Shown: in pieces, positions 12,546 through 63,100 of the stretch
Layout: each line of letters starts with the position of its first letter
Position numbering within the stretch: position 1 is the first letter of the stretch
Origin: Acanthamoeba lenticulata
Taxonomy: Eukaryota > Discosea > Longamoebia > Acanthamoebidae
NCBI GenBank assembly: GCA_002179805.1
Contig: NAVB01000753.1
Location: forward strand, 1 to 64,000
Length of the DNA stretch: 64,000 bases
Direction: 5' to 3'
The notes under the pieces: model-generated
Told to the model about the DNA's origin: nothing
Databases searched by the model: none
What the model saw: the letters and a program-made list of their open reading frames with translations, nothing else
Translations under genes and position numbers: made by a program

Positions 12546-15201
12546 TTAGGTGACCTCCTCGAGGGTGAACTGCTGGAGGTGTCGCCTGAAGTCGTCAGTC
12601 TCCTGGCCCTGTGTGACGACGTGGACGATCTTGGTGGCGTTCTCGAAGCGCTGGACCCGTTGGACGGTGCGCTGGGCCACCTGGACGAAGCGCTCGCTGC
12701 ACTGGGCGCCGACCCAGATGAAGAAGGCATCGGGGGACTGCAGGATGTAGCAGCTGGACGAAGGCGCGGCGTTCTGGAGCTCGACGAGGTTCTCCTTGCG
12801 GGCAAGCTTGGCGACGACGAAGTCCGGGTCGTTTTCGGTGTGGACGACCACCTGGTAGAGGCGCAGCCCACCCTCGCGACTGTTGCCACTGCGCGCGAGG
12901 CTGAGGCGCTTGGCGAGCTCGAGCAGCTGGCAGATGAAGCCCGTGTTGGGACTGCTCACGCCTCGCCGCTCCTTAACGAACATATGCGTTCGCTCGAAGC
13001 CCCAGCCGTTCTTCCACATGAGGTAGCCGATCGTCATCGCCGACGAGCGCGAAACGCCCTGCTGGCAGTGGACAAAGATCTTGCCGTTGGAGGTAATTAC
13101 ATTGTCCATCCACTCGATGACGTCGTAGAGCATGCACGTGATGTCCTCCCGCACGCCGTCCATCAGGTAGAGCGTTCGATAGTTGAAGTCGTTCGGGTGG
13201 TACTCGGGGCAGATGGACCCGGCGCAGTTGAGGATGTGGGTCACGCCCTGCTGCTTGAGCATCGCGATGTCTCGCGACACCGTCTGGCTCCCGAGGTAGA
13301 CCTGGTCGGTGATCTTCGAGCAGATGCTGTCGTACTTGCTCAGCTTGTCCTGCCGCTGGTTGACCTCGGCGCGGTTGAAGATGTCGCTGTCGCCGCCCTG
13401 CTCCTTGTCCTGCATGCTCTGCAGGTCCGAGAGGCTGAAGCTGTTCATCGGGACCGCCAGCACCGAGCCTGACAAACTCACGCCTCCGGTCTTGATCGGG
13501 GGTAGCTTGAGCTTGCCCTTCTTGGCGCCTGACGACGTAGGGATCACCGGCATTGTGAGTGACGACGACTTGGTGATTGGGCGCGGTCCCAGGTCCGCCA
13601 GTGTGAGGTGACCGCCCCCCTCGGCGGGGCTCGTCGTCGTTGTGGTCGTCGTTACCATCGGCACCGGCGAGCTCGACTCCGCCGGCTCCTCAATCGAGAC
13701 AGCGTTGATGATGGCGTCGAGCGCGCTGGCCGATCGTGAGCGCCCGTGTCGGGACGGTGAGACAGGCGCCTGGAAGAGATTTTTGACCTGAGGAATGGAG
13801 AGCTTCGGAACACTTCCGTTGCTTCCGCCGTCCGGATTTTCCCCGGCCTCGCCGCCAGCCGCGCCTCTCCGCGTGAGGCGGCGCCTCTTCAGCAGCTGCC
13901 GGTAGAGATGGTGTTGTCGCGAATACGGCTTTTCGTCGTCGTCGTCTTCGTCGTCGCTTTCGACATCGGCCTCTTCGCTGTCGTCATCGTCGTCGTCGTC
14001 GTGACGTTGTGAACGGCGACGGCTTGCACAAGCCTCGGCGTCGCCAGCCGCCGCCGTCTCTCCGGCCAGCGTAGTTGACGTAGCACGTGCTTGGCGGTGA
14101 CGATTGTTGTGCGTGCAGGAGAATATGGACGAAAGCGGGACCTTGTCACCCCCTCGGAACAGCCGTCGCAGCACTCTCTTGCCGTCCTTCTTCAGCGCCT
14201 TCTCCAACTCGAAGCTCTTGGTGAGAGCGAGAGCCTGCACCAACTGCAGCGAGTCTTTACCTCGCCACACGTACAGGTTGTAGGCCAGAGGCGGGAGTAC
14301 GCCTTCCTCGTCTTCTTCTGAGTCCGCCGCGGCCGAACTGTTGCCGGTAACCGCGTCCCCCTCGAGATCTCGCGACGATGAAGTCGACGAATCGTCGTCA
14401 AAGTTGTTGTTGTCGGTAGCGGAGGTGATGAAGACTTCCTCGAGACAACTGGCGAGACCGCGCGGTGTGAAAACCTCAACCGACGAAGACAGCAACGATT
14501 CGATTGTTGCCGTTGGTGACTGGTTCGATTCGCCCCCCGCACCGTTCGCTCGGCCTCCATCCCCGATGTTGTTGGTCGGAGTTGCTGCTGCTGCTGCTCT
14601 GATTTTTAAAGAGCGCGTAACAGCGTTCTCCGAGAAGATGTGGAGGGCCAGGTAGGCTTGGTGTCGATCGAAGACGAATGATTCATTCAGGCAGACCGGT
14701 TCGTGTCTCACCTGAGAATCTTCTGCGCTTCCGTTGTCGTCGATGAAGAACCTCCACACGTGAAGAGAGCTGTTGTAGGAGCCTCGCTTCTTTGGTCCCT
14801 CTTCCTCGATGGTGGTGTTGTAGCCGTTCGCGTTGCCACTTCTTCCTCCTCCTTCTGTCGGCCGCCCTTCATTCGTAACTCTTCCTTCAACTCCTCCATT
14901 GTCGGCAATAGTACCACTTCCACCTCCTCCCTTGAGGATGACGCCGAGAGGAATAGGCTTCCTCTCGATCGCGATTCGGTTGCCCATTCTGCCTTTGCGC
15001 ACTTGAACTACTACTGCTTGCTGCTCTTCTCCCTGCAACAACAAAAAATGAGGTCAAATGGTCAATAAGATACCAAGGTTTCCACAAGCTCACGAGTTAA
15101 ACTCAAGGGAGCATAATACAAAAACGAAGATGATAATTATGGGGTAGGTCAAGTTGGATGGAATGATGGATGATACTAGTACTCACCTCGGGTTGTTGTT
15201 G
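12546..15201 (-). CDS. Dual-specificity phosphatase with gelsolin-like segments (MKP1-like layout)
   Basis: A large exon (15032-12546) is open throughout; I extend it by a 15-base microexon (15187-15201) and leave the 5' end open. A start at ATG 14987 (MGNRIAIERKPIP) is an alternative. The N-terminal third has a segment reading LYVWRGKDSLQLVQALALTK with gelsolin-repeat character. Then come a Ser/Asp-rich, probably disordered stretch and a dual-specificity phosphatase domain (ITDQVYLGSQTVSRD ... LNCAGSICPEYHP) with the active-site loop HCQQGVSRSSA, so Cys, Arg and the general-acid Asp region are kept. A second gelsolin-like domain (YQVVVHTENDPDF ... FIWVGAQCSERFVQVAQ) closes the protein. Plant MKP1 also combines a MAP-kinase phosphatase domain with a gelsolin-like domain. 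The likely role is dephosphorylation of a MAP kinase or similar target, possibly with actin or PIP2 linkage; the latter is inference. Confidence 0.83.
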
Positions 15202-22640: not shown

Positions 22641-24997
22641 ATGCAAGACCATAGACACAGGCGCGTGTACATTGTTGGTACGTTTTTCGTTCCTCCGCCT
22701 CGCAGTGACGAGAATGCGTGCTCAATTGGGGGCTGCTCCCCAACAACAGCGTCGGAAGCACGTGGGCTGGGCAACAAGGCGGCGGCGTACATCGTCATTC
22801 GCCTTGATGACGGTGTGACCAAGAAGAAAGAGCAAAAGGTGTACAAGTCTAAAGTAATCAAGAAGGAATCTGACCCGAATTGGAATGACGGCAGCAAAAT
22901 CTTGTAGGCTCCCCCCCCTCCTCTTCTCCCTTCTCTTCCAATGCCCTTTATGCTGCAGCGAGCCGCAGCTGACTGCAATGAACAGCGACGTCAACGAACA
23001 GCACAAGTCGGTTATCATCTCCTTGCACAGCGAAAAGCTCATTTGGGACGCATCGCTCGGCCAAGTTGTGTTTAACTTGGATGAGGTGAGCGATGGTGTG
23101 CCGATAAACCGGTGGTTCCCGCTGGTGAACAAGAAGGGCAAGAAGGTGGATGGTGAACTGCACGTCCAGTTCATGATGCTCTTTGACGACGAGAAAGTGA
23201 CGGGCGACGAGTTCTCAGCGCCAATTCAGTCCTTCATTCGCAAGCGGCGCGTGATGATTCTCGAAGCCCTCCTGGCCAAGGAGGAGAGTAACCAGTACCT
23301 CAAGGTCAAGGACAGCGAGGGTCTCTACCCGCTCCACGTCGCCGCCCAGCACAACCTACCGGACATCGTGCGTCTCCTCATCGAGCACGGTGCCGACATC
23401 GACAAGAAGGGCGGCGCGGGCGGCGTGACTGCGCTTCACATTGCCTGCAGCACCTCCTCTGAGAGTGCCGTCGTTCTCCTTGAGGTATACCTTCCTAGTC
23501 TCAGTGCCAAGGCCACTCACCGCCCTCCTCATTTTATTTATATTTATATATATTTTTGCTTCACAGCACAAGGCCAAGGTGAGCGTGGCGGACAAAGAGG
23601 GCAACCTGCCCATTCACATTGCCGCCAAGAACGATCAGCCCAAGACGATCGCCCTGCTGGTCGAGGCTGGCACGTCGATCAACGAGCAGAACAGCGAAGG
23701 CAACACACCCCTGCACGTGGCCATCCAGGCCAAGGCCTTCCTCGCGCTCAAGCTTTTGGTCGAGAAAGGCGCCAACATCTACGTCAAGAACAAACAAGGT
23801 AACGCCATCATCACCATCATTATTGTGGGTCAAATCGTTCGTAGTGGCCAACGTGGGCGGTGTGCATACGTTAGGGATGACGTGCGGTGAGGCGGCGGCC
23901 GACCTGGACGAGCAGAGCAAGCAGATCTTCATGAAGACTGTCGGCGTGGAGGACTACCAGGAAATCGCCCTGCTGCAGGACTGGACCAACCGCCTCCGCG
24001 TGGAGGCCACTGGGCTCAGCTTTGAGTGGCAGCAGAGCCCGCAAATCGCCATCAGCGCCAAGAAGCCGACGCCCGTGCGCATCCTCGTGCACCACCAAGG
24101 CGCCCCCGACAACTCAAACATTGGCTACGTCATCATCAAGAGCGTTCGTACGTGTTCCCTTACGTTTTATTCTAATTTATTCTTATTAATCTTACCCGGC
24201 TTCTCTCTGCTTGGACAGGCGGTGAGCATAAGGAGCCCTCACTGACCGAGCTTCTGGGCCACGGCGGCGCGACCCCCTACGAGGCCGTGATCGACCCGTC
24301 CTACTTCACGGTGATCGTGCCCTATGCCAAGTCCAAGGGCGTCGCCGACCGCATCTCCGTGCTGGTGTTCACCAAGGGCGACGACGAAGTCGAGGTCAAG
24401 CAGCTGCGCGAGTGGAAGTATAGGCAGGAAGTCAAGGTGCGGCGCTCGCCCCCCGGCTTTTCCCTCCATGTGGTCTCACCCAAGATGGGCTTGACGCAGG
24501 GCGAGTGGAAGGGCAAGACCGCCGGCGGGTGTCAGAACGAGAAGAAGACGTGGCACAAGAACCCGTTCTTCTCGCTGGTGATCCCCAAGAAGGAGGCCGT
24601 CGAGATGTCCATCGTACTCACGCAGAAGAAGAACGCCATGGAGGAGATCCTGCCCTACCAGACCCTGCCCTACGACTTCTACATCGGGTACTACCTCTAC
24701 GACGCCGAGGTCGAGAACAGCTTCGGCCAGGTCCCCAAGTGGAAGAACGCCGTCGAAGGTGATTCCCTCCCCTCTTCTCCTCCGCTCGAGCTTGTGTTGA
24801 TAATGCCACTCCCTTTGTTTGCTGACACGGGCCGTGTGTGTGTGTGTGCAGTTGTGTGTGACTGGACGCTCAACGGAACGGAGACGAGGCAGTACACGAT
24901 CATCCCGACCACGTTCAAGGCCAAGGAGGAGACCACCTTCACGCTCACCGTCTACTCTGATGAGAAGAAGGTCGTCCTCAAGGACTTTGAGGAGTAA
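22641..24997 (+). CDS. C2 - ankyrin - calpain domain III protein without a protease domain
   Basis: The gene starts at ATG 22641. Exon 1 (...RRVYIV + first base of Ala) joins across an intron to SEARGLGNKAAAYIVIRLDDG, giving a C2 domain start (about residues 8-140) that continues KKESDPNWNDGSKIF... and LGQVVFNLDEV. At about residues 165-330 there are four ankyrin units (YPLHVAAQHNLPDIVRLLIEH, TALHIACS, LPIHIAAKNDQPKTIALLV, TPLHVAIQAKAFLALKLLV). The C-terminal half has two beta-sandwich regions; the second reads MGLTQGEWKGKTAGGCQNE then WHKNPFFSLVIP, the hallmark of calpain domain III (GEWxxGxTAGGCxN...NPQF). No Cys-His-Asn protease core is present. Both C2 and calpain-III domains bind phospholipid, often with calcium, so a membrane-associated adaptor is likely. 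Exon joins are in frame, such as VKNKQG-MTCGEA and IKSV-RGEHKEP. Stop TAA is at 24995-24997. Confidence 0.85.
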
Positions 24998-28931: not shown

Positions 28932-29825
28932 TCAAGCAAGGAGCCCGCGCAGAGCAGCGGGGAGGTGGGCCATGACGGCCGCGACGAGCGAGGCTCCACC
29001 GACGCGCGAGCCAGCGGGAGAGCAGTGGAGGTTGCCGCCGTCCATGTAGGTGATGGAGCACTGGTGGCACTCGGCCGAGACGACGTTGTTGATCGCCGAC
29101 GCGCGGTCGATCTGCACGGCGGCCGACTGGCAATAGAGCTGGCTGCCCGCCTGATCAGCGCTGTTGTACTCGATGTGCGAGTTGTAGAGCTTCAGGTTCG
29201 CCGACTCCAGGTACACGCCGCCTCCGTTACGATCGGCCGAACTGGCGCTGACGGTGGTGTTGTAGGCCTCCAGAGAGTTGCTCTTGCTCCAAAGCGAGCC
29301 TCCGTCCTTGGTGGCGTGGTTTGCGATGAACTTCATGTCTCGCAGGACCTAGAGAGATGAGAAGAAGTCAGAGAGAGATGATCACAGGCCCTCTGGGGTG
29401 TCAAGCTGACGTACCGTGTAGGCCTGCTGGACGTTAATTCCGCCACCGTACTCGGTCTCGCAGTTGCGAACGGTGAAGCCTTGCATGGTGAATGTGCTCG
29501 ACTGGACGAGCAGGCCATAACCCTGACGCTGGCAATTGATCACGGTCGAGTCGGGGTCACCGCTCTCGGAGATGAGAGTGAGGGAGTTGGAGGTGACGTT
29601 GAGGTTGTAGTTGTCCTCTCCCGTGTAGACGCCGCTGCGAACGGTCACCTTGCCCTGGTTGTTGGTCAAGGCGCGCAGTGCCGCACCGAGGGTGGCGTAG
29701 GGCGCGTCTTGGGACCCGCACGATGTAGTGCATGTGCTGTTGGCATCTACCCAGACGTCGAGAGACCGGGCCTGCTGGGAGAAGCACACAAGGGCAAGGA
29801 CGACGCACAAGATAGTAGTGTTCAT
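28932..29825 (-). CDS. Secreted right-handed beta-helix protein, probably GPI-anchored
   Basis: Two exons: ATG 29825 down to the donor ACG|GTACGTCAG, then the acceptor TCTCTCTAG|GTCCTGCG, ending at TGA 28932. The N-terminus is a clear signal peptide (MNTTILCVVLALVCFSQQARS, cleavage near ARS-LDV). The body has repeated short beta-coils such as TLISESGDPDSTVINC, QSSTFTMQGFTVRNCE, KLYNSHIEYNSADQ and AAVQIDRASAINN. These are typical of pectate-lyase-like parallel beta-helix folds, with several Cys and N-glycosylation sites (NVTS, YNTTV). No catalytic residues of a known lyase are evident. The extreme C-terminus is a hydrophobic tail (ASLVAAVMAHLPAALRGLLA) preceded by small residues (SPAGSRVGG), as expected of a GPI attachment signal. 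A cell-surface or cyst-wall protein is likely; that is inference. Confidence 0.78.
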
Positions 29826-30235: not shown

Positions 30236-33179
30236 ATGGGCCAGAAGCATGGAAAGCAGGCTACGCTGTCCCGCGAACGTATGGCGCTCCCTTCAAACCG
30301 GTGCACGTGTGGCTCAGCCTCACGTCTTTCACGCTTCTGCGCAGTGAGCAGACAGCAGGTGGGGGAATTGGAGGCCCTGTTCGATATAATTCAGCGGCAG
30401 TTCCCGTCGGGGTCGCTGGACAAGGCCAACTTTGGCAAGGTCTTTGCTGCCGGGGACGATGCATTCGCGCGACGGTTGTGGGCGGCGCTGGACCCCACGA
30501 ACACAGGCGTCATCAACTTCCGAGAGTACGCCCTTGGTGCCTCCATCTTTTGCGTGGGCTCCAAAGAAGAGAAGCTGCAGTGTACGCATTCGACTTCCGC
30601 CAGCCGTTGCCCGTTTTGTCTTTTGCTTTATTGACAAGCAGGTTTGTTTCTTGGCAGTTTTGTTTCGCTTGTGTGACCAGGACGAGGACGGCGTGATCAG
30701 CTTGATGGACTTCAACACGATGCGCTTCACCGTGTCCAGGTACGAATGGCACAAACCTCTCGCAGTGGTCCTCGTGAAGCTCAAGGCAGCTGGTGTGTGT
30801 GCAGGTTTGTCCACAACTACCTGGCTGCTCTGGAGGAGAATGATGATCAATCAACGGTCGAGGTATGTGTGTACCTGGGTTGGTTTGGAGGCAAGAACTC
30901 CACCCTCACCTGTGAAACTGACAGGACCTCATGCGGGCCGAGTTCGATGCGGCCGACGCCGACCACGACAAGCGGCTCACCTTTGCCGAGTTTGCCAAAC
31001 TGTTTGAAAAAGGTTCGTGTGGCCCTGATATCGGGTCCACTTCCTCTACCCATGCTGATAATCGACCGCTGGCACCACCACAGGAGAGCACGAGGGCAGC
31101 GGCGCCCTGTTTGACCTGCTCGAGTCGATCGAAGAGCGGCTCCGCCTGCTCTTCGTGCCCAAGCAGCTGCACATCCGCTGCGCGCTGGTCGGGCCCGCCC
31201 AGTGCGGCAAGTCCACGGTGGTGGCCTCGCTCACCAAGGAGGAGGTGGGCAGCGTCTATCGATACAAGTGCGCCCCTCGTCCTCGCCCTCCCCCTGGCGT
31301 GGTGAACTGACCCCACAACATGCGTTTGCCCGCCCGCTCGCCCGCTCGCTTGTGTGGCGCAGCAAATACTACAACCTGGACGGAGTGCCCGTGCGGCTGG
31401 AGATCATCGACTCGGGCAGCAACCGCGCGTTCGCCTACCCCGGCGTGGACATCGTGATCATCCTCTTTGCCGTCGACTCGCAGGACCACGGCGTGCTGGA
31501 TGAGGTCAGACCTGTTTGTCAACAAATGTCTCTTTTTTTTGAGTTTGAAGAAGCTCACGCCCCTTGTGGTGGTGTGACCGGTCGTCGTCATCGTCAGATC
31601 AATGATGAGATCGAGCGCTACTGCCCAAAGGCGGTGCGCATCTTTGGGATGACGAAGCTCGACCTTCAGGCCGACACCAACGAAGTCAAGTACCGCGCCA
31701 AGGAGCTGGCCGCCCAGTGCGCCAAGAAGCTGCGGGTCGCCAAGTCCTTCCAGCTCGCCTCTTCCGCCCAACTAAAACTGGTGCCAAACAAGCACTCCCT
31801 CCTTCTCTTTTCATCATCGGAAGACTCAACGAGTTTTTCTCGCGCGGGCAGAGCAATGTGGAGCTGGTGACGCCCGAGGACCTGTTCAGCTACGCCGTGT
31901 CGTGCGTCGTGCCGCCGTTCCTCCTGCGCCCGCAGTGCGTCCACATCAGGTTCGGCATTTTCGTTACTTACTTGACCGCCAACCAAAGGAGGGGGCCTCA
32001 CCACCACTCTCCCGCGTTCGCGATGCAGGTGCGGGATGGCGGGACCTCAGGGAGGCGGGCGATCGGCCATGATCGGGAAGCTGCTGGGCCTCGACGCCGT
32101 CACGTCCCACCACTATCAGGTAACCCGTGAGAGGCACATCAGCTGGCGGTCAGATGCGGGACTCACCGGTTCATTCTAGGGGGTGGTCGAGGCCGACAAC
32201 ATCAAGGCCGACCTCGAGATCTTTGACTCGGAGGAGTACAATCGACCGCTGTTCCTGGCCCACGTGCACGTCCTGATGCTCGTGTTCCCTGTCGCTCACG
32301 CGACCTTCAAGTTCGTGTTTCTGTGAAGATGACCACTAGCTCCCCTCCCCATCTCGTCTGACGCGTTTCTCTCGCGCAGGGAAGTGGAAAAGATTGCGGC
32401 GGAGCTGCGAACGATCTGCCCCGACGCCCCCATCATCCTCGTCGGCAGCAAGATCGACCTGCGCGGCTCCACCAAGGTTTCCACCCGCTGCTCTTGCCCG
32501 CCCTTTGCCAACAAGGGACGGTTGTTAACCAACGCGTTGAGGAATGCAGTGCATATCTGAGGAGAAGGGCCAGGAATGGAGCCACAAGCTCAAGGCCTGG
32601 CGCTACGTCGAGTGCTCCGCCACGGCAGACCTCAACGTGCGCGCCGTCTTCCAGGAGGCGGTCCGCGCAGCTGTGCCCCTCTTCTCCATCACAGTACGTC
32701 GCCTCGCCCCGCATGGGCCAACAACGGTCGAAATTCACGAAGAGCTCGTCCGGGCGCTTGCTCTTGCACAGGACTCTGGGCCGCTGAGTCAAGAGCACCG
32801 CCCGCTGCGGCCGGACACCCACCCGGACGCCCCGGCGCTCCCTTCCAAGGACGATGCCGCGCCCAGCAAGAGCGGCGGAGGCTTGCCCTCGCCAAGGCGA
32901 AGACCGCCCGGTACGGTGCGGCCGATGATGTCGCCGCCGTCGCGGCCCATCCCCGAGCGGCCGCTGCCGGCTCCACCGGTGGGCGGGGCACAGGCGGGAC
33001 AGCGCGTTGTGGCGCAGTACGACTACCGCGACGACAAGCGCGAGGGCGTCCTGCACTTCTCGCGGTTCGACGTCATCACCCTCGTCGAGCGGCGCCCCGA
33101 CGGCTGGGCGCTGGGCCGGCTGTCCAACGGCCAGCAGGGCTACTTCCCCTTCTCCTACGTGCTCCCCGTTGCCTCGTGA
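30236..33179 (+). CDS. EF-hand / GTPase-like / GTPase-like / SH3 multidomain protein
   Basis: I read one gene of about 700-750 residues from ATG 30236 to TGA 33179. Exon 1 (30236-30278) gives MGQKHGKQATLSRE, a Gly-2 N-terminus that could be myristoylated as in calcineurin B and neuronal calcium sensors. Exon 2 starts at 30345. Residues about 20-180 hold EF-hands with canonical loops DPTNTGVINFRE, DQDEDGVISLMD and DADHDKRLTFAE. A first Ras-like domain follows: P-loop GPAQCGKST, IIDSGSN where DTAGQ is expected, and TKLDL. A second G-like domain has GPQGGGRSA, lacking the P-loop Lys, then FDSEEYN, SKIDL and ECSA. After a Pro-rich linker the protein ends with an SH3 domain (VVAQYDYRDD ... WALGRL ... 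GYFPFSYV). Miro has GTPase-EF-EF-GTPase-membrane span; this order is different and there is no membrane span. A calcium-regulated membrane scaffold is inferred. Confidence 0.82.
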
Positions 33180-35235: not shown

Positions 35236-37175
35236 ATGGAGAGCCCAACGATGCACGACGAGACTCAACCCCTGCTCGGCGGTCGTCTGAAGGACAACAA
35301 GACCCAACTTATTGTCACTGCTGTCGTCGCGGTTGTCGTTGGTCTCATCGTTGGTACGATACAGCCTTTGAGTTGTAGGTAAGGGAAAGAAGACTGACAA
35401 GTTACACTTTTATCTCAAAGGCGTCATCATCGGATGGGGCATATTCGATGAAGCCAACTTGTCGACCCACAAGGCGGTGAAGGAGGTGGGTATCCTTCAC
35501 TCCCTCTCCGGTCCTCTCGCGGTCGACGAGAGGCATGTCGTCGACGCCACTCTCCTGGCCATTGAAGAGATCAACGCTGCCGGTGGACTTCTTGGCCACC
35601 ACCTGAAGCCAATCCTACGGGACGGCTTTTCAGACCAGAAGGTCTTTGCCAGTGAGATGCAGAGCCTCCTCGCACTGAGCAAGGTCGACGTTGTGTTCGG
35701 TTGCTGGACCAGCGAGAGCAGGAAGGCTGTCCTGCCTACCCTCGCCGCCAACAACGGTCTCCTGTTCTACCCGGTTCAGTATGAAGGTGTCGAGTCCCAC
35801 CCCAACGTCGTCTACACCGGTACGGCAACCCTGAAAACGTCTTTTCTTGGTCGTGATGTTGAAGTACTTGCGCTGTTGGTTGGTTTACCTACAACCCCGT
35901 TCTCCAACAGGTGCTGCCCCCAACCAGCAGATTCTTCCCGCCGTGCAGTGGGCTTCTGGGCTGGGCTATAGGTACCTAGCTCTTTTCTCTGTATGCTAGC
36001 GCCGCTGTTCCACTTACCGCCTTTGGTGCCATCGACAGGAAGTTTGCCCTGATCGGCTCTGACTACATCTTCCCGCGTACCGCCAACGCCATCATCAAGG
36101 ACGCCCTTTCCACCGTGGCTGGCTCCAGCGTTAACGAGGTTCGTTGATGGCTATCCAGATTGCAACATTCAATGAATAGGGTGCTTACGTCTTCCATGAT
36201 CACAGCAATACCTCATTCTCGGCGAGGAGGACCCCACCCGTGTCAACACCGCCGTTGCTACCATCAAGGCTTTCGCTCCTGATGTTATCTTGAACACCGT
36301 CAACGGTGCGGTTGCCTCCAACAGCGTATTTGAAAACAAAGACTTACTTGAGCCACAGGTGAGACCAACGTACTGCTCTTCAACGCGCTCAACAGCGCCG
36401 GCGTGACCACTCCTGTCGTTTCCTTCAGTGTGGCCGAGCCTGAGCTTGTTCAGATCGCTTCCACTGGCGTGTCGATGGCCGGTTCCTACGCTTCCTGGTA
36501 CTGGTTCCCGTGAGCGACTTGCAGGCGGCACGCTTCGCGCTGTTAGGGGGGTTGTTGATTTGCTCTTGCGTGCTCTCCAGGAACTACTTCCAGAGCGAGC
36601 CTGGTGCGGCCAACTCGGCCTTCGTGGCGGCGTTCAAGCGCATGTACGGCCAGGCCTCCGTGCTGGGTGCGGCTGACGCTTTACCTCTCCCCTTTCGAGT
36701 GACGACGGGCCTCACATCCACTCCGCGAGCAGGTGATCCGATGGCGGCTGCCTACACGGGTGTCCAGCTGTGGGCTGAGGCGGTCAAGAAGGCTAACAGC
36801 TTCTCGGCTGCCGCTGTCAAGGCGGCTCTCCCAACGGTGTCAGTGACCGGCCCCATGGGCACCGTCACCGTGTCTGCTAAGAACCAGCACACCGTCAAGT
36901 CCTGGTACATGGGTAAGTAGACCTGCTCTGTTATTTCGGCGCAAGTGCGGGCTACTGGAGTTGACTCTGCACCGACAGGCCGAGTGCAGCCCTCGGGCCA
37001 GTTCGCCATTGTCGCGTCGAGCACGGGTACCATCAACCCGGAGCCCTACCCGCTCGCGGGAGCTCACACCACGCAGGAGTCGTGGACGGCGTTCCTCAAC
37101 TGCTACTTCTCCAAGTGGGGCCAGTGGAGGAACGGCAACGGTCCCTCGGCCATCCTCCCCAACAACGCTTGCTAG
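35236..37175 (+). CDS. Membrane-anchored urea/amide-binding protein of bacterial UrtA/AmiC type
   Basis: The gene has several exons, from ATG 35236 to TAG 37175. The body closely follows bacterial UrtA, the substrate-binding protein of the urea ABC transporter: VGILHSLSGPLAVDE, AIEEINAAGGLLG, VDVVFGCWTSESRKAVLP, GLLFYPVQYEGVE, then YTGAAPNQQILPAVQW across an intron, IGSDYIFPRTANAIIKD, SFSVAEPELVQ, DPMAAAYTGVQLW and VKSWYMG-RVQPSGQFAIV. In bacteria this protein is periplasmic and feeds a permease. Here the N-terminus is eukaryotic: a short cytosolic tail with HDETQPLL, matching the acidic dileucine sorting signal [DE]xxxL[LI], then one span (LIVTAVVAVVVGLIVG-VIIG). That makes a type II membrane protein with the binding domain in the lumen or outside. 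No permease or ATPase gene is adjacent. Six or so introns show it is fully resident. It may be a nutrient or signal receptor; that is inference. Confidence 0.88.
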
Positions 37176-60100: not shown

Positions 60101-63100
60101 CTCAGCGGGCACGACGTAGGCGATCGGCTCCTTCTCCGATCGGATGATCTCGGACTTGACGACCTGCGGGACGCCCCACGACTGGACGGCATAGAGCTGA
60201 ACGACGATGTCCACGCGCTCCACCGTGTTGCCGTCGTGGTCGGTCACGACGATATCGACGATGTAGGGCTCGTTGACCACTGGGTTGGGCGAGTGCTTGC
60301 GCAGGCCCACATAGTACAGGCACGGGTGGAGGATGAGCTGCGTGGTGGTCGTGATCGACTTGCGGTTGATGTCGACGATCTCAATCAGGGCCGCCAGAGA
60401 CACCGGGCACGGCGGGTCCGGATAGCCCTGTGGGATTGAGACATCAGCTGTGAGTGAGTGCGTTTGACGACGAGGGGCGGTGAAACTGTGCCTTGAACTG
60501 GATGAGCACTTTGTGCTCGCCCGACTCGCGGGTCTTGCCCTTGAGCACCCGCTGGCAGGCCAGTTGAGTGGGCTGCGCCAACACGAACTGCCGGGCGCTG
60601 GTGAACGTGAAGTCGTGGAAGCCGGGCGGGGCGAACGAGCCCGACGTCGACGACACCGTCCACGTAACGTCTGCCAACCGCGATCAACATAATTAACAAT
60701 CGTCAGGTCACCCCAGCGCTCAAGTACGTACCCGAGTCAGAGAGCGCGCCGCCAGCGTAGTAGGAGCCCTTGGCCTTGACCAGCGCCGAAGCCTCGAACC
60801 AGATCGGGGCCTTGGTCTCGACCTCGGCCTCGGCGATGAACTCGGGCCGGCGGAACTCCTGGACCTGGAAGTGGTGGACGTGCTCACACGTGGAGACGGA
60901 AGGGCCCTCGTGCTCCTCCAAGTGCAGGTGAACCTTGGCGTCGCCCAGATTGATCTGAAGGGGCGGGGCACGGGTCAAGCGGTGACCTCGAAGCCAAAAA
61001 ACCAGGAAAAAACCGGTGAAGAGAGCGCACGTTTTCGGGCAGAGTCAAGGCAAAGTGGAAGGTGCCCATCCCGGTAAGGAAGAACTCGCCCTTCAGGACC
61101 TCGGCCGACCTGGAATCGACCAACTTGTACAACACCTTCTGCATCTTGGGCACCACCAGCTTCTCGAGGTGTTCCTGCGCCTCCCTCTGTTCTCCGCCCA
61201 CGACCACCATCACAACATCATCATCATCATCAATACCGTGATGACTCCTAGAGAGAGCTCGATCACAAGTAAAGGTGGCGGCGCTGACCTTGAGGAACCG
61301 CACGTAGCCCTTGATGTTGACCTCCTCCTTGGGGCGGTACATGCTGCGGTCGTCAAACACATGCCACAGCAGCTTGGTCTCGTGATTCAGAAACGGGAAG
61401 GTCCACACGTCGGGGATGAAGGCGCAGTCCTTGCCCTTCTTGGCCACGAGCATGGCGGTCCGGTCCGTGTTGTGCGACAGCACGGCGATGCCCTCCTTGC
61501 TGGTCGTCACGCTGTCCGGGGCCTTGCGTTCCAGCGTGCAGTTCTTGATGAAGATCGGGCTCAGGTCGATATCGGGGCGCGGCGACCGGGGCGAGCGCGG
61601 GGACAGCGGGCCCTCGGCGGCGCCCGCGCGGGCCAGGGCCTTCTTCTTCTCGATCTGCTTCTTGTCGGGAAGCAGCAGAAGTTGCGCGCCCATGACGGAC
61701 TTGCGCTCGTGCCACGAGACGTGGACGCCCTTCATGTTGTTGCCCTTCACCAGGTTGGTGGTCCACACGTGGACCGTCTGGAGGCTCTGGAAGGCATCGA
61801 GACCTGTGTCGTCGAGGTCAAGACGTGTGTTCGATTCGATTACGAAACAGAAAACACCAGGTGGCGGCGTACCGATGCGAGTGCACTGCACCCAGGCCTT
61901 GATGATGTCCCTCTGGCGCCAGTGGTTGGGATAGTGGCCTGGTTGTGGGCCCCACAAAGTCATCATCATAGTCACAAGTGAGAATAGAGTTGCTTGCTTA
62001 GCACGCTCGTGGAGGCAGGACGCACTCTTGGCGGTGGGGGTGATGACGACGCCGACTTGGCCCAAGAACCGCTTGGTGTCCTTGAGGGCCGGCGTGAGGT
62101 CCACCACAAAGTCGACAAATTCGTCGTCCTTGTAGTTGGCCACCGGCACCACCTGGTCGTACACGATCTTGCCAAACCTGGTCACGCACAGCCACAGGTC
62201 TCAGCCGACCGTCGCGACGGCTCCTCATCCGCCAATAGTGGCGGTCATGAGAGAGTACCCGAGGTAGTCGTGGGTCTCAGAGTCGCTCTCGCGGGCGTTA
62301 GTGTGGCTGGCCTCCTTGCCCCACTTGGCGTAGTGCTTGCGCGGGTTGAGGCGGTAGAGGCACACGCGAAGCTCCTTGTAGTTGAAGACCTTGATGTGGT
62401 ACGATGGGGCCTTCTTGGTCGAGGCCACCAGCACGGGGTCGTAGACGATCAGGCCCGTCTGGAAGGCCTTGAGAGCCCGCGGCCTCGGCGGCTCCCAGAC
62501 CTTGACCTCCCACTCGATCGTGCCGCGCGGCTCGGAGCCGTCATCAGGCACCGGCGCGGCGTCCTCGCCCTTGGCCAGGCCCAGACACTGGCCGAACCGA
62601 TCCCGGACGGCCTGGTAGTCGATCTCCACCTTATAGACCGTGTCGCCCGCATGCTGGCTGCTCCGCAGGTACAGAGTCTTATACGCGGTCGTGATTCGCA
62701 GGTCTGGCAAGAGACGAGCCGGGGTCCCACAAGAACAAGTCAGGTCATGAACGCAAGCCCGCGGCCAGTGCAACAGTTGAGTAAAGGGCGAGTACCGGGC
62801 AGGGGCGGGGTAACGCGGATCTTGAGGGCGTTCAGCGATGCGGCGCTGAGATTGTTGGAGAAGCGGACGCACCAGTCGGCCTTGGGGTAGATCTTGACGT
62901 CAGTGCTGTACGGGTGGAACTTGACTACCTTGAACTCGGGCATGGTCTTGAAGCTGAACTTGTGCACCACTTTGCTCTTCAGCGGACCCTCCGCCGACGG
63001 GATCTACGCAGTGGTACATCAGTAAAGGGTTGTGAGCCAGCGCATGCCATTGTTCATCAACAATGTGCCGATTGTGGGCAGTGAAGGCGCGACGTACATC

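Follow-up and report, generated by a model that had tools for sequence, protein, structure and literature searches.

A predicted Acanthamoeba lenticulata protein that joins a calcium-sensor-like module, two Rho-related domains and an SH3 domain

EF-hands and two Rho-related G domains are combined in one adaptor in the Miro/RHOT proteins (PMC10746525; this and the following papers on protein families are cited for excerpts of their text). N-terminal EF-hands, a proline-rich stretch and a C-terminal small GTPase domain are found in the large Rabs Rab44, RASEF/Rab45 and Rab46 (PMC8303950). Two tandem G folds, pG1 and pG2, occur in p190RhoGAP, where switch I of pG1 has been lost through an 11-residue deletion, switch II is degraded and the role is not that of a switch (PMC5593906). 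EhRabX3 of Entamoeba is an amoebozoan protein with tandem G domains that lacks the G2 sequence motif (PMC8514894, PMC5593906). Finally, neuronal calcium sensor (NCS) proteins, which are about 200 residues long, carry a myristoylation consensus and four EF-hands, the first of which is silent (PMC3956117). Here we analyzed a gene of Acanthamoeba lenticulata at positions 30236-33179 of a 64,000-nucleotide stretch of DNA (the window; positions 1 to 64,000 of contig NAVB01000753.1, assembly GCA_002179805.1), whose predicted protein carries four EF-hands, two G domains (hereafter G1 and G2), a proline-rich linker and an SH3 domain, in this order.

Our best reading of this protein, to which we give a probability of about 0.5, is a Ca2+-regulated and perhaps myristoylated adaptor with two switchless pseudo-Rho domains and an SH3 domain. 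The combination would probably serve as an adaptor under calcium control and not as a GTP switch. p190RhoGAP is a precedent for tandem pseudoGTPases, and the switch I deletion in its pG1 is a direct parallel, with the differences that here the G4 and G5 motifs are largely kept, the P-loop of G1 is kept and an NCS-type module and an SH3 domain flank the G domains. The likeness to NCS-1, frequenin and recoverin lies in four EF-hands with a non-binding EF1, an N-terminal Gly and a similar length and order; these proteins stand alone, whereas here such a module is joined in one chain with G domains and an SH3 domain. The large Rabs have a coiled coil and one Rab domain in place of two Rho-type domains and an SH3 domain. 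Membership of the large Rab group was rejected because no Rab is present in the best 60 of 165 (G1) or the best 60 of 337 (G2) matches in the PDB, among which Rho is nearest. EhRabX3 is to our knowledge of Rab type and without EF-hands or an SH3 domain. A literature search on this domain set and on EF-hand Rho or EF-hand-containing GTPases found this order in no title or abstract opening among the papers listed, and the terms 'EF-hand', 'SH3', 'Miro' and 'small GTPase' are all absent from the main text of the A. castellanii genome paper (PMC4053784).

A single gene model

The gene was modelled by hand as 14 exons, which after splicing give 2001 bases including the stop codon (Table 1). It starts with the ATG at 30236 and its TGA ends at 33179, exactly where a preliminary description of this DNA had placed it. 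All 13 introns are of the GT..AG type, measure 51-95 nt each and agree in phase, giving one 666-aa frame. In 8 of the 13 the length is not a multiple of three, and two others, introns 10 and 11, carry in-frame stops. Introns 1, 7 and 13 are stop-free and divisible by three, and hence compatible in frame with retention; intron 13 has no counterpart in the metagenome relative P0001 described below, and intron 7 has none in the Rho alignment, which it would break if retained. The least certain parts of the model are intron 1 itself, its donor and the acceptor of intron 8, which touch no motif discussed here. GC content is 0.652, 0.418 and 0.849 at the three codon positions (GC3 = 0.849), and 0.64 in exons versus 0.572 in introns.

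Pfam matches are quoted for the 666-aa protein where a domain exceeds the Pfam cut-off. They comprise EF-hand_7 (3.7e-11, residues 94-172), Ras (6.8e-23 across two stretches; separately 4.9e-5 for G1 and 3.9e-18 for G2), SH3_9 (2.7e-7) and SH3_1 (3.7e-7), the SH3 domain covering approximately residues 611-663. This spliced single frame and its matches agree with the earlier proposal of one gene with the order EF-hands, G1, G2, Pro-rich linker and SH3, and we consider it nearly certain that this predicted architecture belongs to one protein. The only Met residues are at positions 1, 16, 115, 120, 148, 301, 380, 391, 440, 583 and 584, and no in-frame start ATG was found between EF4 and the P-loop of G1 or between the end of G1 and the first strand of G2.

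Two metagenome proteins bear on the exon joins. P0002, a 96-aa protein, is identical to exon 6 at 57/61 positions and the match ends at most one codon from both predicted splice sites. P0001, a protein of 155 aa encoded by an 8356-base contig, has FSIT-DSGPLS uninterrupted by an intron, which equals the predicted exon 13-14 join, and continues in one frame from the tail of G2 through the linker to the SH3 domain. These matches support both boundaries of exon 6, the junction of exons 13 and 14 and the fusion of G2 with the SH3 domain. Both relatives were the only match of exon-sized searches at E<=0.001 (1 of 1328 candidates for P0001, 1 of 147 for P0002). The full-length protein found none among 7998 scored candidates of the metagenome collection at the same threshold, perhaps because the eukaryotic genes of this collection are broken at introns; on viral contigs 14 stretches fitted a pattern and none was confirmed. 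At its source P0002 is named 'polynucleotide 5'-kinase involved in rRNA processing', a name that is probably wrong and due to the P-loop.

The two G domains

G1 retains the P-loop GPAQCGKST (residues 211-219), the equivalent of Asp-57, TKLD and the SA motif SSAQ, and its DSGSN (residues 252-256) replaces DTAGQ, as had been described. G2 retains the Asp, SKID and ECSA, and its P-loop GPQGGGRSA (residues 382-390) has Arg for Lys. By sequence, the DxxG Gly and switch I are missing in both domains and the P-loop Lys is missing in G2. The loss of this Lys had been recognized earlier as that of a catalytic residue; the P-loop Lys binds phosphate, and that part of the statement did not stand.

A script measured the motif spacings in G1, in G2 and in those 12 of 30 loci that had detectable motif patterns (L011 among the 30 is the window itself). 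The reference consisted of nine Rho rows, classed by sequence and representing about six genes since some are the same or near-identical loci, and three Ras rows. From the P-loop Lys/Arg to the Asp there are 35 residues in G1 and in G2, versus 41 in 9/9 host Rho rows and 43, 43 and 41 in Ras; both domains are thus shortened by an identical 6 residues at switch I, and the alignment shows no Thr-35 equivalent in G1. The distance from the Asp to the Arg after switch II is 5 in G1 and 6 in G2, versus 11 in 8/9 Rho rows, 10 in the remaining one and 11, 11 and 8 in Ras, a shortening of switch II by 5-6 residues in both domains. The Arg lies 45 residues from G4 in G1 as in G2 (46-47 in the Rho rows), and G4 is separated from G5 by 37 residues in G1 and 32 in G2 (41-45 in 8/9 Rho rows, 34 in one, 29-30 in Ras). 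Neither domain shows the full set of Rho traits (switch I, switch II, Rho insert and CAAX), and no CAAX end was found at the C-terminus of the 666-aa protein. Among the host genes, L010 (G000:C50:116097-116477) is an unusual Rho-family member: DTFHYDDD takes the place of DTAGQEDY in its switch II, and its G4-G5 spacing of 34 is short, as though the Rho insert were absent.

Each switch II region lies inside one exon (7 in G1, 11 in G2), so that the switch II losses are not accounted for by errors in splicing. The switch I positions fall at the exon joins 6-7 and 10-11; no switch-like peptide was found in introns 6 and 10 in the read-through frame, and the end of exon 6, next to the switch I gap, is common to P0002. 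We conclude that G1 and G2 are very probably two switchless pseudo-Rho domains. A normal GTP cycle is not expected of either domain; G1 may still contain a nucleotide, and G2 is probably without one because its P-loop Lys is lost. The suggestion that the second G domain is a pseudo-GTPase is in keeping with the predicted loss of its P-loop Lys, switch I and DxxG Gly, but the first would not be an ordinary GTPase beside it, as G1 also appears to be without switch I and most of switch II. According to the definition and classes of pseudoGTPases given in PMC5593906, where Rnd is an example of class ii, both would be pseudoGTPases, G2 of class i and G1 of class i or ii.

The preliminary description took both domains for Ras-like. 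The best PDB match is RhoA for G1 (1.5e-7) and Rho1 for G2 (1.6e-13), and all PDB rows inspected, the best 60 for each domain as above, belong to the Rho/Rac/Cdc42 family. Judged against solved structures, both G domains are nearest to Rho and not to Ras. When G1 and G2 were compared with each other, 44/166 residues were identical (E 8e-18, single comparison). In a joint alignment G1 is closest to G2 (29.5%, versus 20.8-27.4% to the host Rho rows), and a 12-row tree joins the two with moderate support (82/91). G1 and G2 are probably a tandem duplication of a Rho-derived domain, and the shared 35-residue spacing at switch I suggests that the loss of switch I came before this duplication.

Terminal modules and genomic setting

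The N-terminus resembles a whole NCS/frequenin-type sensor, with sequence traits that agree or are compatible with those of the family. Frequenin was the best PDB match of residues 1-198 (4.4e-13, residues 37-170), followed by calcineurin B (6.1e-12, residues 40-172) and, third, NCS-1 (7.4e-12, residues 9-170), so that the alignment with NCS-1 (2l2e) starts at residue 9. As in NCS proteins there are four EF-hands with a presumably silent first one within about 200 residues (here residues 1-175). The EF-hand loops had been called canonical, and this holds for EF3 and EF4, which are full or nearly full loops, but not for EF1, which is degenerate by eye, nor for EF2, which is partial (sequences in Table 1). 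The EF1 loop has a PSG that is also present in NCS-1 2l2e and a P-x-G that is also present in frequenin. The Gly-2 start proposed earlier is present (MGQKHGK) and fits the N-myristoylation pattern PS00008, without the Ser/Thr at position 6 that is often favoured in such sites.

At the other end, three Pfam SH3 models score above cut-off and the elements YDY, GW, GYFP and SYV are common to P0001; the ligand-binding residues of SH3 domains are Tyr, Trp, Pro and Tyr. An AlphaFold model of exon 14 (two-sequence input) had a mean pLDDT of 67.4, with 84-90 in blocks of residues 91-130, and was best over the SH3 domain. The best 50 of its 132 Foldseek matches (E<=0.001) are, by title, nearly all SH3 domains or SH3-containing chains. 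Identity to P0001 varies strongly along this region: 17/19 in the tail of G2, 6/6 in the first six residues of exon 14, 8/51 in the linker that follows, 8/11 in the motif PxPERPLPxxP, 0/6 in the stretch after the motif and 42/54 in the SH3 domain. PIPERPLPAPP holds two overlapping [RK]xxPxxP motifs (residues 589 and 594), of which P0001 has one. PERPLP is thus a conserved putative SH3 ligand motif in an otherwise diverged linker, beside an SH3 domain.

Table 1 Predicted parts of the gene, in coordinates of the window
Feature	Position	Strand	Content
Whole gene	30236..33179	+	14 exons, 666-aa protein; spliced model with consistent phases and GT..AG introns
Exon 1	30236..30300	+	MGQKHGK... start; Gly-2
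Exon 2	30352..30581	+	EF1, degenerate (FPSGSLDKANFG); EF2, partial loop (DPTNTGVINFRE)
Exons 3-5	30658..31012	+	EF3 (DQDEDGVISLMD) and EF4 (DADHDKRLTFAE), canonical or near-canonical
Exon 6	31084..31267	+	Helical linker, G1 P-loop GPAQCGKST; no Met upstream of the P-loop in the exon
Exon 7	31363..31504	+	G1 past the missing switch I; DSGSN instead of DTAGQ; switch II short by 6 residues
Exon 8	31598..31780	+	G4 motif TKLD and G5 SSAQ of G1
Exon 9	31852..31949	+	Last helix of G1 and first strand of G2 (by alignment)
Exons 10-13	32029..32693	+	G2: GPQGGGRSA, no switch I, DSEEYN, SKID, ECSA
Exon 14, first part	32772..33008	+	Pro-rich linker with PIPERPLPAPP
Exon 14, last part	33009..33179	+	SH3 domain, stop

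An actophorin exon of the 48,480,206-base assembly (1825 contigs) is 80/84 identical to PDB 1ahq, the actophorin of Acanthamoeba, as suits an Acanthamoeba-like amoeba. We searched this assembly for further copies of the gene at 30236-33179. At the DNA level only the gene itself and one 54-base stretch were found, the latter on contig C819, which also carries a weak G2 match (E 0.0021). For the NCS part, nothing else in the genome scores better than E 0.0066. G2 gave 64 matches at E<=0.1, including its own exons and host Rho and Ras genes. Near-identical pairs of small GTPases lie on separate contigs (L016/L019, L020/L021, L023/L024 and L058/L059) and an EF_assoc_2 domain occurs twice with equal scores, while the gene at 30236-33179 was found once; these pairs and the doubled EF_assoc_2 domain suggest uncollapsed haplotypes or recent copies.

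In the neighbourhood, a divergent frame on the minus strand (28932-29825, with a Met near 29825) has an N-terminus that by eye looks hydrophobic and signal-like, and it matches a beta-helix weakly, below cut-off (5.5e-5). To the right, an open frame on the plus strand (35372-35971) encodes a Peripla_BP_5 domain (E 2.1e-45), which is a solute-binding domain of bacterial type within a eukaryotic genome, and three minus-strand frames have no Pfam match. Elsewhere in the window are an 835-aa open frame (12546-15053, minus strand) in which a gelsolin repeat (3.3e-8) comes after a dual-specificity phosphatase domain (1.4e-25), ankyrin repeats (9.1e-12; 22858-23802, plus strand), a calpain domain III (5.2e-13; 24176-24997, plus strand) and weak alpha-2-macroglobulin MG2/MG3 matches below cut-off (60884-62200, minus strand).

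Proposed mechanism and alternative readings

In the adaptor reading Ca2+ would bind at EF3 and EF4 and perhaps at EF2, Gly-2 would be myristoylated, and Ca2+ would alter membrane attachment, scaffold exposure or both. G1 and G2 would act as docking and spacer domains of a scaffold, G1 perhaps keeping a permanently bound nucleotide and G2 probably being empty. The PERPLP motif would occupy the SH3 domain in cis or bridge molecules in trans, and the SH3 domain would recruit to the membrane Pro-rich partners that may belong to the actin cortex. The calcium-linked scaffold imagined in the preliminary description is plausible, and we see this mechanism as a whole as a real possibility with a chance somewhat below even. 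A further-reaching version, which we hold to be speculative and rather unlikely in all its parts, is an undescribed family that arose when a Rho module, having first lost both switches, underwent duplication and came under a Ca2+-myristoyl sensor; Rho folds would then serve purely as a Ca2+-gated scaffold, with the G1 nucleotide as a permanent structural cofactor and the protein's own PERPLP holding the SH3 domain until Ca2+ releases it.

Several observations weigh against the adaptor reading or parts of it. No relative found, neither P0001 nor P0002, spans the EF4-G1 join (exons 5-6), for which the support is the splicing phase and the absence of an ATG in exon 6. In plain identity the host Rho rows (27.5-29.7%) are as near to G2 as G1 is (29.5%), so the duplication reading depends on the deletions common to both domains and on a modest tree, in which G1 has a very long branch (2.47). 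G1 alone is a weak Pfam Ras match (4.9e-5), and P0002 alone, the P-loop exon of a relative, matched only a Rad17 P-loop, below cut-off, and not Ras. An excerpt of PMC8514894 calls EhRabX3 an active hydrolase although it is without the G2 motif, and therefore loss of switch I does not prove inactivity. Lastly, the SH3 domain of Acanthamoeba myosin I (2drm) ranks only 49th in the best 50 of 132 Foldseek matches, with 37% identity, and this modelled match is at most a hint of a role in the actin cortex.

The missing relative across the EF4-G1 junction, in a gene model made from sequence alone, also leaves room for an artefact in which adjacent EF-hand, GTPase and SH3 genes were fused by hand-made splicing. 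We regard this as very improbable: there is no in-frame Met from EF4 to the P-loop of G1 nor from the end of G1 to the first strand of G2 (Met at 148, 301 and 380), exon 9 encodes parts of both G1 and G2, and P0001 covers the tail of G2 to the SH3 domain as one frame. A Miro-like organelle adaptor with a shuffled order would account for two G domains with EF-hands, the Rho relationship and the adaptor logic (PMC10746525, in part), and it is equally improbable. Miro/RHOT proteins have the order G - EF - EF - G - membrane span, whereas here four EF-hands of another, NCS-like type come first and are followed by G - G - SH3, both G domains are switchless and an SH3 domain stands where Miro has its membrane span, of which none was seen. 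EF_assoc_1 and EF_assoc_2 are not among the 19 Pfam families matched at E<=1 in the 666-aa protein, and EF_assoc_2, which we take to be typical of Miro, is present on two other contigs of the genome, with Miro-like frames by eye around one of them. Membership of the Miro family was rejected on the wrong domain order and the absence of an EF_assoc match at E<=1, as the preliminary description had also held.

A third alternative leaves the architecture as it is and changes the role of G1, which as a class ii pseudoGTPase would be constitutively GTP-bound like Rnd and recruit effectors through its GTP face, Ca2+ controlling location only. The retention of GPAQCGKST, the Asp-57 equivalent, TKLD and the SA motif in G1, the conservation of the P-loop exon in P0002 (57/61) and the standing of Rnd as the class ii example speak for this possibility. 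Rnd proteins retain switch I, whereas G1 has lost the segment that carries the Mg2+-binding Thr and the effector loop, which makes a GTP-dependent effector face hard to see, and we judge this alternative to be unlikely, if less so than the two preceding ones.

The equal shortening of switch I in two Rho-type domains means that the loss of switching may predate the duplication. This hints at a Rho fold retained for roles other than GTP cycling. The gene would represent a natural fusion of a calcium sensor with Rho-derived domains that ordinary biochemistry can test.
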